64,000 nt of DNA from Candidatus Hinthialibacter antarcticus (lineage in GTDB: Bacteria; Hinthialibacterota; Hinthialibacteria; Hinthialibacterales; Hinthialibacteraceae): positions 1-64,000 of the forward strand of contig JAVCCE010000070.1 of assembly GCA_030765645.1 (NCBI GenBank), given 5' to 3'. The notes beneath the pieces are model-generated. The model was not told the origin of the DNA and ran no database searches. It saw nothing but the letters and a program-made list of their open reading frames with translations. Below are positions 4,494-57,525 of this stretch, in pieces. How positions within the stretch are numbered: the stretch's first letter is position 1; each line of letters begins with the position of its first letter. The translations under genes and the position numbers were made by a program.

Positions 4494-4584
4494 GGACGAG
4501 GCCTGGGTACGTCTCACTTCGCTTCCGTGCGGGCTGTCAGGCCCTTTGCACAGGCGCTCACAGAGACGCCCCCAGGCCTCGTCC
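4494..4584 (+). repeat. Element A copy 2, hairpin core only
   Basis: Core hairpin with the C-G version of the variable outer pair (GGCCTGGG / CCCAGGCC). The stem continues into the flanks to 14 perfect pairs, 4494-4507 with 4571-4584. The next stem is CGTCTC / GAGACG and the apical stem is GGGC / GCCC. The MITE arms are missing. It follows the stop of the CoA-binding gene by five bases and could cap that transcript, but no U-run follows. Confidence 0.85.
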
Positions 4585-7402: not shown

Positions 7403-9781
7403 TTAGCGTCGACCGCCTCGGTCTCCGCCGCCGCTGGGACGACCACCGCCGCCGCCACTGCGACCACCGCGATCTCCACCGCCGCTACGTCCACCACCAC
7501 CGCTGCGTCCGCCTCGGTCTCCACCACCGCTACGACCGCCGCCGCCGCTGGGGCGACTTCCACGGTCGCCGCCGCTTCCACCACTGGGACGATCTTCACT
7601 GCGGCCTGCATCCTGCGGGATGCGGCCTGCGTCGCGGTCGGCTTCTTTCTTGCTGAGATTGATGCGGCCAAATTCATCAATTTCGACGACTTTGACTTCA
7701 ATCTCCTCGCCTTCCGAAACAACGTCGGTGACTGACTCAACCCGGCGCGGTTCGAGTTCGGAAATATGAACCAAACCTTCCTGACCGGGCAAGACTTCGA
7801 CGAAGCAACCGAAGTTGGTGATGCGGGTGACCTTGCCTTTGTAGACGCGGCCTACTTCGACTTCTTGCGTAAGATAGTCAACCCACTCGCGCGCCTTGCG
7901 CCCGGCTTCTTCGTCGGTCGAGGCGATGATGACCTTGCCGTCGTCGTCGATGTCGATCTTGGCGCCGGTTTCGGCGATGATCTTACGGATCATCTTGCCG
8001 CTTGGCCCAATGACGTCGCGAATCTTATCAATGGCAATCATCATGGTTTGGATGCGCGGCGCAAACGAACGCAGTTCGCCTCGCGGCGCTTCCAGCGCTT
8101 CGGCCATCTTGCCGAGAATGTGCTGGCGGCCTTGCTTGGCTTGTTCAAGCGCTTTCGCCATGATATCGCGAGTGATGCCTTCGATCTTGAGGTCCATCTG
8201 GAAGGCGGTGATGCCGTTGCTGGTTCCCGTGACTTTAAAGTCCATGTCGCCGAGGTGATCTTCGACGCCGAGGATGTCAGACAACACCGCGAAGCGGCTG
8301 CCGTCGGAGATCAAACCCATCGCGATGCCCGCGACGGGCGCTTTGGTCGGGACGCCTGCATCCATCAACGCCAACGAACCGCCGCAGACGCTCGCCATTG
8401 ATGATGAACCGTTTGATTCGAGAATGTCAGAGACAATGCGAATGGTGTACGGGAATACTTCGTGGTCCGGCAGCATCGGCTCTAACGCGCGTTCGGCGAG
8501 TGCGCCGTGACCAATTTCACGACGGCCCGGGCCGCGCATCGGGCGGGTTTCACCCACGCAGAACGGTGGAAAGTTGTAGTGCAAGAAAAATTTCTTGTAG
8601 TATTCTTCCGCCAGGTTATCGACTTTTTGTTCATCTGAGACGGTGCCCAGGGTTGAGATGACTAACGCCTGGGTTTGACCGCGGGTGAACAGCGCCGAAC
8701 CGTGAGCGCGGGGAACGACCCCTGTTTCACAGGAGATGTGGCGAATTTGGTCGAGGCTGCGACCGTCGCTGCGGACGCCTTCATCCAGGATGCGGTTGCG
8801 CATGATTTCTTTTTCGAGATCATGGAAACTGCCGCCGATTTCTTTCGGCGCATTGGAGAGGCGTTCTTTGACGGCGGCCACGGCGGCTGCGTCGCCTGCG
8901 GTTTCTGCGTTTTGCACGTCGGTCGTGAGGCCGTCAATAATCGTGGCTTTGACTTCGTCGAGAATAACGCCCAGCGCGGCTTGGCGCGCGTGTTTGTCGC
9001 CCACCATGCTGGCTTCGCGGATGCGGCCTTCGGCCAATTCACGCAACCAGTTTTTGATGCCTTCGTCAGGCTGAGGCGCTTCAAATACGTATTTCTCTTT
9101 GCCGCATTTGCCGCGCAGTTCGGTAATCATTTCGCATAGGTCGCTAATGATGGATTGCGCGAGTTCAAAGGCGTCAAGCATGACCTCTTCAGGCTCTTCC
9201 TTCGCGCTGCCTTCAACCATCATGATGGCGTTTGACGACCCGGCGATTGTCAGGTTCATCGAACTGTCGGGCAGACGGTCCAGGGTGGGGTTGGCGACCA
9301 ATTCGCCGTTGATGCGTCCGATACGGACGGCGCCCAGCGGCCCCGCGAAGGGTATCTCTGAAATTTCGATCGCAGCAAACGCCGCGACCATGCCGAGAAT
9401 ATCCGGCTCGTTCTCGCCGTCATACGAAAGCACCTTGAGCAATACCTGGACTTCATTTTTGAAGCCGTCAGGAAACAAGGGGCGCATGGGACGGTCGATG
9501 CAACGTGAGGTCAGCGTTTCGCGGTCGGAGGGACGCGCTTCCCGCTTGAAAAATCCACCGGGGAAACGGCCTGCCGCATAATACGGTTCGCGGTAATCAA
9601 CGGTGAGGGGGAAGAAATCTTGACCTTCCCGGGCGTGTTGCGCCATGGTGGCGCAGGCCAATATGACGGTATCGCCATATTGGACGGTAACCGAGCCGCC
9701 AGCCTGTTTGGCCATGCGTCCGGTTTCGATCGTCAGCGTACGGCCGGCGATCTCTCTTGATACTTGTGTGACTTCAGACAT
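7403..9781 (-). CDS. pnp: Polyribonucleotide nucleotidyltransferase (PNPase)
   Basis: Phosphorolytic 3'-5' exoribonuclease, core of the RNA degradosome. Domain order: RNase PH 1, alpha-helical linker, RNase PH 2, KH (IGPSGKMIRKI, near residue 590), then S1 (VGRVYKGKVTRITNFGCFVEV). ATG at 9781 is chosen over the longer frame because AAGGGAGAC lies upstream and the protein then begins MSEVTQVSREIAG as expected. At 792 residues it is about 80 longer than the E. coli enzyme. The excess is a C-terminal tail of about 70 residues made almost only of G, R, S and D in repeated SGGGDRGGR blocks, a low-complexity RGG-type RNA-binding tail. A long structured leader separates it from rpsO. Confidence 0.97.
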   Translation of the reverse strand: MSEVTQVSREIAGRTLTIETGRMAKQAGGSVTVQYGDTVILACATMAQHAREGQDFFPLTVDYREPYYAAGRFPGGFFKREARPSDRETLTSRCIDRPMRPLFPDGFKNEVQVLLKVLSYDGENEPDILGMVAAFAAIEISEIPFAGPLGAVRIGRINGELVANPTLDRLPDSSMNLTIAGSSNAIMMVEGSAKEEPEEVMLDAFELAQSIISDLCEMITELRGKCGKEKYVFEAPQPDEGIKNWLRELAEGRIREASMVGDKHARQAALGVILDEVKATIIDGLTTDVQNAETAGDAAAVAAVKERLSNAPKEIGGSFHDLEKEIMRNRILDEGVRSDGRSLDQIRHISCETGVVPRAHGSALFTRGQTQALVISTLGTVSDEQKVDNLAEEYYKKFFLHYNFPPFCVGETRPMRGPGRREIGHGALAERALEPMLPDHEVFPYTIRIVSDILESNGSSSMASVCGGSLALMDAGVPTKAPVAGIAMGLISDGSRFAVLSDILGVEDHLGDMDFKVTGTSNGITAFQMDLKIEGITRDIMAKALEQAKQGRQHILGKMAEALEAPRGELRSFAPRIQTMMIAIDKIRDVIGPSGKMIRKIIAETGAKIDIDDDGKVIIASTDEEAGRKAREWVDYLTQEVEVGRVYKGKVTRITNFGCFVEVLPGQEGLVHISELEPRRVESVTDVVSEGEEIEVKVVEIDEFGRINLSKKEADRDAGRIPQDAGRSEDRPSGGSGGDRGSRPSGGGGRSGGGDRGGRSGGGGRSGGGDRGGRSGGGGGRPSGGGDRGGRR

Positions 9782-10027
9782 AAAAGTCTCCCTTTTAATA
9801 TCCGCTTGGCGAACGCTAGAGCGTTTGTCAAAAGCATGTGCGGAAAGCGCGCCCGTAGGGCTCAGCGATAGATGCAGTGATGAAAACTCAATCCGCACAA
9901 AATTTTAGCAACCACAATAAAAAGCGTTGAGCGCCAGTGAAAGGAAGAACTGGAATGGAAATGTCTCTGCGTTATACAGACGTGAGCGCAAATCATTGCG
10001 CGCCCCCGAATGAGGCAGGTACGGGTA

Positions 10028-10130
10028 AGACGGATGCCGACCCATCATCACCCTGACTAGGAGGTGGGAGGTTGTCGCCAACCTTCGACCTCCTAATCGG
10101 GGTGTTGAGGATACACTTCGGCCTCCGTCT
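10028..10130 (-). promoter_or_regulatory. Structured RNA region between rpsO and pnp (candidate pnp leader)
   Basis: Five nested helices can be drawn: 10028-10034 with 10124-10130 (AGACGGA/TCCGTCT), 10036-10040 with 10118-10122, 10049-10053 with 10100-10104, 10059-10065 with 10088-10094 (AGGAGGT/ACCTCCT), and 10069-10074 with 10079-10084 (AGGTTG/CAACCT). No T-run follows on either strand, so it is not a simple terminator. In E. coli, pnp is autoregulated through RNase III cleavage of a leader stem-loop; a similar role here is an inference. The rest of the 396-base gap shows no gene. Confidence 0.6.
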
Positions 10131-10177: not shown

Positions 10178-10447
10178 TTAGCGGCGTAGGCCTAAGCGGT
10201 CAATCAATTCGCGATAGCGATTCACTTGATTTAGTTTTAAATAGTCCAACAAACGGCGACGACGGCTAACCATTTTGATCAAACCGCGACGCGAGTGGTG
10301 GTCTTTTTTATGCATCTTAAAATGCTCAGTCAGGTTCTTGATTTTTTCAGTCAAAATGGCAATTTGAACTTCGGCTGAGCCTGTGTCGGTGTCATGCACT
10401 TTGTAATCGGTAATCAGTTCTTTCTTTTTGACAATGGTGATAGACAA
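10178..10447 (-). CDS. rpsO: 30S ribosomal protein S15
   Basis: Standard 89-residue uS15: [30 protein letters not shown] and the C-terminal RRRLLDYLK segment that binds the 16S rRNA central domain. The start codon is TTG, supported by the strong ribosome-binding site GGAGGTGAG. It follows truB by 28 bases in the minus-strand cluster, the common truB-rpsO-pnp order. In E. coli S15 represses its own translation; no homologous site was traced here. Confidence 0.97.
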
Positions 10448-33415: not shown

Positions 33416-33901
33416 GGTTCTTCCGGTATTTGGATGCTTTTTCCCAAATAGAATTGAGATTTATAGAAGCCTCTTCATCAATACTTGAACTTTCGCTGTG
33501 TGTGGCATGGGTACAACTCTGCTCGCTTCAGTGCGGGCTTTCAGGCCCTTATGCACAGGCGCTCCCAGAGTTGCACCCATGCCTGATTGGTTCGTCAATT
33601 TTTAATATGTCCGAATATGTTTTCTCAAACAAAATTATGGTTCTTCCGGTATTTGGATACTTCATCACAAATTGAATTGCGTTTTTTTGACGCTTTTTCG
33701 TAAATACTTGATCTTTCGCTGTGTATGGCATGGGTACAACTCTGCTCGCTTCAGTGCGGGCTTTCAGGCCCTTATGCACAGGCGCTCCCAGAGTTGAACC
33801 CATGCCTGATTGGTTCGTCAATTTTTAATATGCCCGAATATGTTTTCTCAAACAAAATTTTGGCCATCCATCAATGTAAGGACTCACTTACCGGATGGAC
33901 C
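33416..33901 (+). mobile_element. Element A copies 4 and 5: tandem MITE-like unit
   Basis: The first unit begins GGTTCTTCCGG at 33416 and carries a hairpin at 33504-33583. It breaks off at CAAAATTATGG and is joined at 33639 to a second, complete 263-bp unit with hairpin 33727-33806, ending CCGGATGGACC at 33901. The two hairpins are nearly identical. The flanks are A-rich (ATAAAAAA before, TAAAAAAA after), so the 8-bp duplication is only approximate here. No transposase is present. Short frames inside are artefacts of the repeat. Confidence 0.88.
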
Positions 33902-37195: not shown

Positions 37196-37319
37196 GGTTC
37201 TTCCGTAAATTTGGATACTTTTTTTATATCGCTGCATGCGGCATGGGTACAGCTCTGCTCGCTTTAGTGCGGGCTTTCAGGCCCTGATGCATAGGCGCTC
37301 CCCGAGTCGCACCCATGCC
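37196..37319 (+). mobile_element. Element A copy 6, short form with 8-bp flanking repeats
   Basis: Starts with the usual left end GGTTCTTCCG and ends exactly at the right foot of the hairpin (CCCATGCC at 37312-37319). TGAATTCG stands immediately before (37188-37195) and immediately after (37320-37327). The right arm found in longer copies is missing. The rest of the gap up to the gene at 37474 shows nothing recognisable. Confidence 0.75.
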
Positions 37320-44340: not shown

Positions 44341-44602
44341 CGTTCTTCCGGTATTTGGGTACTTTATCACAAATTGAATTGCGTTTTTTTGACGCTTTTT
44401 CGTGAATTTTTGATCTTTCGCTGTATCAGGCATGGGTGGGACTCTGCTCGCTTCAGTGCGGGCTTTCAGGCCCTTATGCACAGGCGCTCCCAGAGTTCCA
44501 TTCATGCCTGATTGGGTTGTCAATTTGTGAAATGCCGGAGCCTATTTCTGAATAAAAATCATGGCCATCCATCAATGTAGGAACTCAATTACCGGATGAA
44601 CC
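44341..44602 (+). mobile_element. Element A copy 8: complete 262-bp MITE-like unit with target duplication
   Basis: Left end CGTTCTTCCGGTATTTGG, right end TACCGGATGAACC, hairpin at 44429-44508. TTATTTGT (44333-44340) and TTATTTAT (44603-44610) flank it, an 8-bp duplication with one mismatch. The right arm of the hairpin is TTCATGCC, which still pairs with GGCATGGG through two G-T wobbles. The element ends immediately against the stop codon of the gene at 44603. Confidence 0.9.
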
Positions 44603-49194: not shown

Positions 49195-49274
49195 GGCGTG
49201 GGTACATCTCTCTTCGCTTCCGCGCGGGCTTTCAGGCCCTTTTGCACAGGCGCTCACAGAGATGCACCCACGCC
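49195..49274 (+). repeat. Element A copy 9, hairpin core only
   Basis: Outer stem with the G-C pair (GGCGTGGG/CCCACGCC). The next stem is CATCTCT/AGAGATG, fully complementary, and the apical stem is GGGC/GCCC. The sequence just before (CTTTCGTTGCGAAA) resembles the CTTTCGCTGTATCA of long copies. Otherwise the gap 49115-49487 holds nothing recognisable. Confidence 0.87.
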
Positions 49275-50791: not shown

Positions 50792-50875
50792 CGGGCTTGG
50801 GTACGTCTCTCTTCGCTTCAGTGCGGTCTTAATGACTTCCTTGCACAGGCGCTCACAGAGCCGCCCCCAAGCCCG
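50792..50875 (+). repeat. Element A copy 10, core with a rewritten apical loop
   Basis: The outer stem CGGGCTTGGG/CCCAAGCCCG is perfect over 10 pairs. The apical part reads GGTCTTAATGACTTCC instead of GGGCTTTCAGGCCC, yet GTC/GAC can still pair. The inner right arm GAGCCG has one mismatch to CGTCTC. Confidence 0.82.
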
Positions 50876-57262: not shown

Positions 57263-57525
57263 GGTTCTTCCGGTATTTGGATACTTTATCACAAATTGCA
57301 TTGCGTTTTTTTTGACGCTTTTTCGTGAATTTTTGATCTTTCGCTGTATCAGGCATGGGTACAACTCTGCTCGCTTCAGTGCGGGCATTCAGGCCCTTGT
57401 GCACAGGCGCTCCCGGAGGCGCACCCATGCCTGATTGGGTTGTTAATTTTTGAAATACCGGAGCCTGTTTCTGAATCAATATTATGGCCATCCATCAATG
57501 TAAGTACTCACTTACCGGATGAACA
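57263..57525 (+). mobile_element. Element A copy 11: complete 263-bp MITE-like unit with perfect target duplication
   Basis: Left end GGTTCTTCCGGTATTTGG, hairpin at 57352-57431, right end TACCGGATGAACA. AAAAAAAT stands directly before (57255-57262) and after (57526-57533), a perfect 8-bp duplication. The right inner arm of the hairpin has mismatches (CCGGAGGCGC). The surrounding 57029-57593 gap is AT-rich and holds no gene. Confidence 0.9.

Follow-up and report, generated by a model that had tools for sequence, protein, structure and literature searches.

The window, which is the whole 64,000-nucleotide stretch of the Candidatus Hinthialibacter antarcticus genome that was analyzed, carries infB, truB, rpsO and pnp on its minus strand, all four confirmed with NCBIfam models, and further minus-strand genes that we take to be a DUF503-type gene and rbfA. 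The gene for ribosomal protein S15, rpsO, has a TTG start (10178–10447, minus; TIGR00952, 132.7 bits) and is followed by pnp, which encodes polynucleotide phosphorylase, PNPase (7403–9781, minus; TIGR03591, 1006 bits), and begins with the ATG at 9781 (minus; protein start MSEVTQ). Between the stop codon of rpsO and the ATG of pnp there are 396 bases, and within this gap, on the strand that codes for both genes as in other pnp leader hairpins, lies a 103-nt hairpin of the intergenic mRNA (10028–10130, minus), one edge of which is 47 bases past the rpsO stop codon while the other (10028) is 247 bases before the pnp ATG. The initial annotation had this position, the gene neighbors, the 247-base distance and the arms AGGAGGT/ACCTCCT and AGACGGA/TCCGTCT right, and what it described as a structured region of five helices is one long imperfect hairpin that has an asymmetric loop besides its single mismatches. 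The PNPase encoded here also has a long Gly/Arg/Ser-rich C-terminal tail past the S1 domain, with repeats like RSGGGDRGG (7403–7600, minus).

The fold of the hairpin is exceptionally stable on either strand. Its minimum free energy is −65.7 kcal/mol on the plus and −62.2 kcal/mol on the minus strand, with z-scores of −7.96 and −7.73, respectively, and none of 200 shuffled sequences folded equally low. When the whole 64 kb was scanned on both strands in 103-nt windows at 25-base steps (5112 folds), the fold starting at 10026 ranked first on the plus strand and third on the minus strand. Read in the mRNA sense, the structure begins with an outer stem that gives way to an asymmetric 5′ loop and then to a stem with single mismatches and a small apical loop, and the outermost helix is formed by AGACGGA as the 5′ half (10124–10130, minus) and TCCGTCT as the 3′ half (10028–10034, minus). 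The bases just after the stem are UACCCGUACC, so that the stem followed by a U-run of an intrinsic terminator is not present, and a search for terminator-like sites on the minus strand gave none.

A separate palindromic repeat, with arms like GGCATGGGTACAACTCTGCTCGCTTCAGTGC / GCACAGGCGCTCCCAGAGTTGCACCCATGCC, is dispersed through the same genome and has eight copies in the window (4494–4584, 33504–33583, 33727–33806, 37240–37319, 44425–44512, 49195–49274, 50792–50875 and 57348–57435). Genome-wide, a strict pattern for its center has 159 matches (78 forward, 81 reverse) and the reversed-pattern control none, and this repeat is a REP-like or mobile hairpin family.

Conservation and pairing of the hairpin

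A DNA search of 41 genomes revealed one copy of the element in each of the family's five other genomes, always between rpsO and pnp, in organisms whose aligned PNPase parts are 57–72% identical. A covariance model built from the six family sequences (R1) also detected it in three genomes of the order's second family, giving nine of the nine genomes of the order in the collection. It is flanked by rpsO and pnp on one contig in eight of these, while in the ninth (G007) the contig stops shortly past the element and rpsO lies at the edge of another contig. The initial annotation had named loss of the helices among relatives sharing this gene arrangement as the observation that would speak against the structure, and the nine genomes instead retain it. 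The R1 search did not find the core in the class's other five genomes. The rpsO–pnp gap of G009 was outside the comparison, no rpsO being found there and a partial pnp standing at a contig end.

Matches farther afield were rejected as members. In 372 genomes outside the phylum, R1 gave three matches at E up to 0.01 (G183, G140 and G200), which have no rpsO or pnp nearby and are terminator-like or other hairpins, and its weak matches at L018, L028 and L029 likewise lack rpsO and pnp. At the class-level loci, the best R1 match (21.1 bits, L057 1190–1259) precedes that locus's rpsO and so does not lie in the rpsO–pnp gap. A pattern scan of a collection of 84,980 species returned eight stretches, from six Candidatus Omnitrophota deposits, one "bacterium isolate RI_285" and one Antrihabitans; the last of these (Antrihabitans sp. 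YC2-6, L047 1190–1330) is a very long near-perfect hairpin with no rpsO or pnp within 8 kb. According to a paper on Omnitrophota, the OLB16/SURF_12 lineage was formerly misclassified as Omnitrophica (PMC10066038), and the window most likely belongs to this lineage and not to Omnitrophota.

What is conserved in all nine genomes of the order is a core of 55–57 nt (10049–10104, minus). Its mean identity is 79% (21 pairs among seven of the nine, the loci L037 and L015 being omitted as same-genus copies), while the parts of the gap upstream and downstream show 49%, compared to 47% for shuffled sequence. The core comprises, in turn, CACCC, a C·A/U mismatch, the GAUUAGGA helix with an invariant U·G, an apical stem and loop, and GGGUG. 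Its 5′ arm contains a run of 14 bases in the mRNA sense, CCCCGAUUAGGAGG (10089–10102, minus), that is identical in all nine genomes and is preserved even where it is unpaired: the G before its last G is unpaired in four of the eight distinct cores, and the G that follows GAUUAGGA never changes although the base opposite varies between C, G and A. The 3′-arm run, CCUAGUC(A/U)GGGUG (10049–10061, minus, mRNA sense), is likewise identical in the nine except for the A/U at the mismatch. The C opposite A or U and the U·G pair of the middle helix are fixed as well. The alignment of these sequences (A3) omits L037, the core of which is identical to that of L036.

Compensatory changes, which the initial annotation had proposed should be looked for in the rpsO–pnp gaps of relatives, were found in both the core and the outer stem. 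In the core, 97.2% of cells are paired, compared to 31–51% in slid controls, and double changes occupy 13 cells where shuffles give 4.6 (none of 500 shuffles reached 13); they involve five core pairs, a number reached by 48 of the 500 shuffles, and the thirteen core pairs that never vary are uninformative on pairing. The outer stem is unrecognizable in sequence between relatives, and yet it still pairs with its own partner and the true assignment of 5′ to 3′ flanks pairs best of all 5040 permutations (seven of the nine loci, again without the same-genus copies L037 and L015). Counter-evidence comes from individual loci, since the outer stem of L036 pairs no better than shuffles (72/300), that of L001 pairs modestly better (14/300), and the 5′ flank of L001 has a slightly better partner in the non-cognate 3′ flank of L002 (−39.7) than in its own (−37.7). 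As in the pnp leader hairpins known elsewhere, a long double-stranded stem is under selection.

The same cells indicate which strand is functional. In the mRNA reading, G-U cells number 15 and mismatches five in the core, and for the opposite strand these numbers are five and 15, which favors the minus strand, that of the rpsO–pnp mRNA. Energy alone has no such preference for the mRNA, the opposite strand being more stable in five of the nine cores and over the window's 103 bases. An RNA from the opposite strand was thus set aside, because the energies are ambiguous but the G-U and mismatch counts point to the mRNA, and the minus strand is most likely the functional one. Two other uses of the sequence were also considered. 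Mimicry of an anti-Shine-Dalgarno target, raised in the initial annotation, did not survive the comparison because the 3′-arm ACCUCCU varies in relatives (ACGUCCU, UCCUCCU, GCGUCCU, ACCCCCU and UCAUCCU), unlike the Shine-Dalgarno-like AGGAGG of the 5′ arm, which is invariant in them. A coding function was rejected since core lengths of 55, 56 and 57 together with stops leave no shared reading frame, and relatives do not share the UUG that L001 has seven bases past AGGAGG.

Other hairpins at the rpsO–pnp junction

A different conserved hairpin occupies the same gap in a sister family (f4; L041, L038 and L039 from G012, G010 and G013, respectively). Its arms are GUAGGRCA...UGUCCUAC, in fuller form GUAGGRCAARUACCUUCCAUC / GUGARUGUCCUAC, and it is 66–82% identical between the three genomes compared to 41–54% in the flanks. 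The word CAGGGTGA is common to three of six f1 cores and two of three f4 hairpins, and the word CAGGGUGA, shared by the f4 hairpin with three of the six f1 cores, is weakly significant. Because CAGGGTGA also turned up in 6 to 16 of 300 shuffled sets, it is no more than suggestive of homology between f1/f2 and f4, and the f4 hairpin is possibly a distant homolog of the f1/f2 core. In one further genome of the class (L042), the fold in the gap is stable without standing out (z −2.4).

The comparison outside the phylum covered 17 of the 32 genomes with an rpsO match, and in these 17 pnp comes after rpsO. Gap lengths are approximate because they rest on an extrapolated pnp start; 11 gaps measure some 60 nt or less and six exceed 100 nt. 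Strong hairpins (z −4.6 to −7.0) are present in three of these six long gaps. A long hairpin at the rpsO–pnp junction is therefore recurrent and not universal. The gap of one such genome (L080, G042) holds a long hairpin with single mismatches (z −7.0), which is a candidate pnp leader hairpin.

Control by PNPase of its own synthesis through a leader hairpin is known in Escherichia coli and, in part, in Streptomyces. Reviews describe cleavage of the rpsO–pnp intergenic hairpin by RNase III in both E. coli and S. coelicolor (PMC10126417; PMC5872136). The E. coli gap is described as containing a terminator and a promoter besides the hairpin for RNase III, with RNase III processing being important for pnp expression (PMC5872136), and in a further account pnp regulation is attributed to its own product and RNase III (PMC7509114). 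In S. coelicolor, an RNase III null mutant has two- to four-fold more PNPase activity (PMC10126417). The initial annotation suggested that the present structure may be analogous to the E. coli leader but unrelated to it, and this description is apt: both are long imperfect stems with single mismatches in the same gap, but no sequence similarity is seen (R1 gives chance-level scores at the E. coli locus), the E. coli gap is 246 nt with its hairpin closer to pnp, and cleavage is known in E. coli and predicted here. The Streptomyces hairpin occupies the same place and its cutting by RNase III lowers PNPase; it is cut at a 4/4 internal loop (PMC10126417), unlike the element here, which has 1×1 mismatches and one asymmetric loop.

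Two Rfam families are also associated with this junction. Actino-pnp RNA (RF01688), listed as a conserved cis-regulatory RNA that precedes pnp within a single bacterial lineage (PMC2864571, Table 1; PMC8079986), resembles the element in these respects, and none of 14 genomes reached its gathering score of 47.7 bits or had a match in any rpsO–pnp gap. A sub-threshold Actino-pnp match in G012 (C8:75975–76039; 22.8 bits, cut-off 47.7), about 470 bases past a csrA match (75335–75508), is probably due to chance. SraG (RF00082) is an E. coli annotation within the rpsO–pnp gap, on the strand opposite to the genes, and none of the 14 genomes reached its gathering score of 50 bits, with none at rpsO–pnp. 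Across Rfam, the window had no match at gathering scores and the gap no notable match at E up to 10, the microRNA matches in the gap (E 0.02–8.5) being far under the cut-offs and attributable to chance similarity of hairpins. Literature searches found no pnp-associated RNA for this lineage among the papers listed. The element is placed with the pnp leader hairpins by functional class and not by homology.

Function of the element

The element is probably a cis-acting structured RNA, namely a lineage-specific pnp leader hairpin that is cut by RNase III and through which PNPase keeps its own synthesis in check. If the E. coli and Streptomyces cases are a guide, RNase III would cut the stem and separate the rpsO and pnp messages, leaving the 5′ end of the pnp message in a short duplex, from which PNPase would then strip the upstream strand, so that the pnp leader would be open to decay or translational repression and PNPase would restrain its own production. 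All 14 genomes of the phylum have an RNase III gene over the TIGR02191 cut-off, as is expected for this class of leader, all 14 have an RNase E/G gene, and 13 have a CsrA gene. These are common genes, the presence of which proves little; taken with the known cases, they make the same feedback the simplest account.

This feedback leaves the fixed sequence of the core to be explained. RNase III is not known to require a fixed sequence of this kind and does not usually need 13 invariant base pairs, and cleavage by it does not account for the conservation of the core. Given that fixed sequence, there seems to be a reader of the stem other than RNase III, and the invariant core is a putative binding site for a specific protein, with PNPase as the first candidate. 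A more specific and tentative proposal is that the fixed stem, CACCC-C-GAUUAGGAGG / UCCUAGUC-W-GGGUG, could be a sequence-specific double-stranded RNA operator read by PNPase (through KH/S1) or by an unknown dsRNA reader, and that lineages could have independently evolved pnp leader hairpins with clade-specific recognition codes, a proposal for which the separate conserved core of the f4 family is cited.

The regulator might also be a protein other than the RNase III/PNPase pair, such as S15, CsrA or an unknown dsRNA reader, that binds the core and controls the translation or stability of pnp or rpsO, with RNase III cleavage being secondary or absent. We consider this rather unlikely. It would explain why CCCCGAUUAGGAGG is invariant in all nine genomes, including the G that stands opposite C, G or A, and the core contains a GGA, which we take to be a CsrA-type motif, although that GGA is in the stem and not in a loop. 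The csrA genes in 13 of the 14 genomes also count toward it, but CsrA is found in genomes without this core as well, and its presence therefore does not discriminate. A review of CsrA cites direct control of E. coli pnp by this protein (PMC7652899), which would support a role for CsrA here. The location of the element after rpsO would make feedback by S15 on its own message unusual.

A simpler function, as a processing or stability barrier that shields the rpsO 3′ end or gives each message its own lifetime, feedback playing no part, is improbable. The location of the hairpin 47 bases past the rpsO stop codon, on a strand that lacks any terminator-like site, suits such a barrier, but it would require stability and not fixed sequence, and the identity of the core (79%) exceeds its background (49%). 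Much less probable again is a riboswitch-like sensor of a small molecule: invariant bases at mismatches (C·A/U and G·N) within a conserved stem might be taken to suggest one, but the element is a single straight hairpin with no junction, its core is 169–270 nt from the pnp start, and the minus strand has no terminator-like site. A chance structure, mobile palindrome or DNA-level element can be dismissed almost entirely, for although a different dispersed palindrome is abundant in this genome, the hairpin has a single copy there besides short chance matches (the next are just 14–21 bases, E 0.25 or worse, by which a REP-like dispersed repeat was also rejected), occupies the same place in nine species, and shows compensatory changes and a G-U bias for the mRNA strand.

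A leader hairpin through which PNPase restrains its own synthesis remains the preferred reading. The occurrence of a strongly conserved version, unrelated in sequence to those known, in a phylum without cultured members suggests repeated origins of this feedback at one and the same gene junction. The fixed core allows testing of whether PNPase or another protein reads double-stranded sequence, and the alignment could serve as a new RNA family entry, one diagnostic of this lineage.
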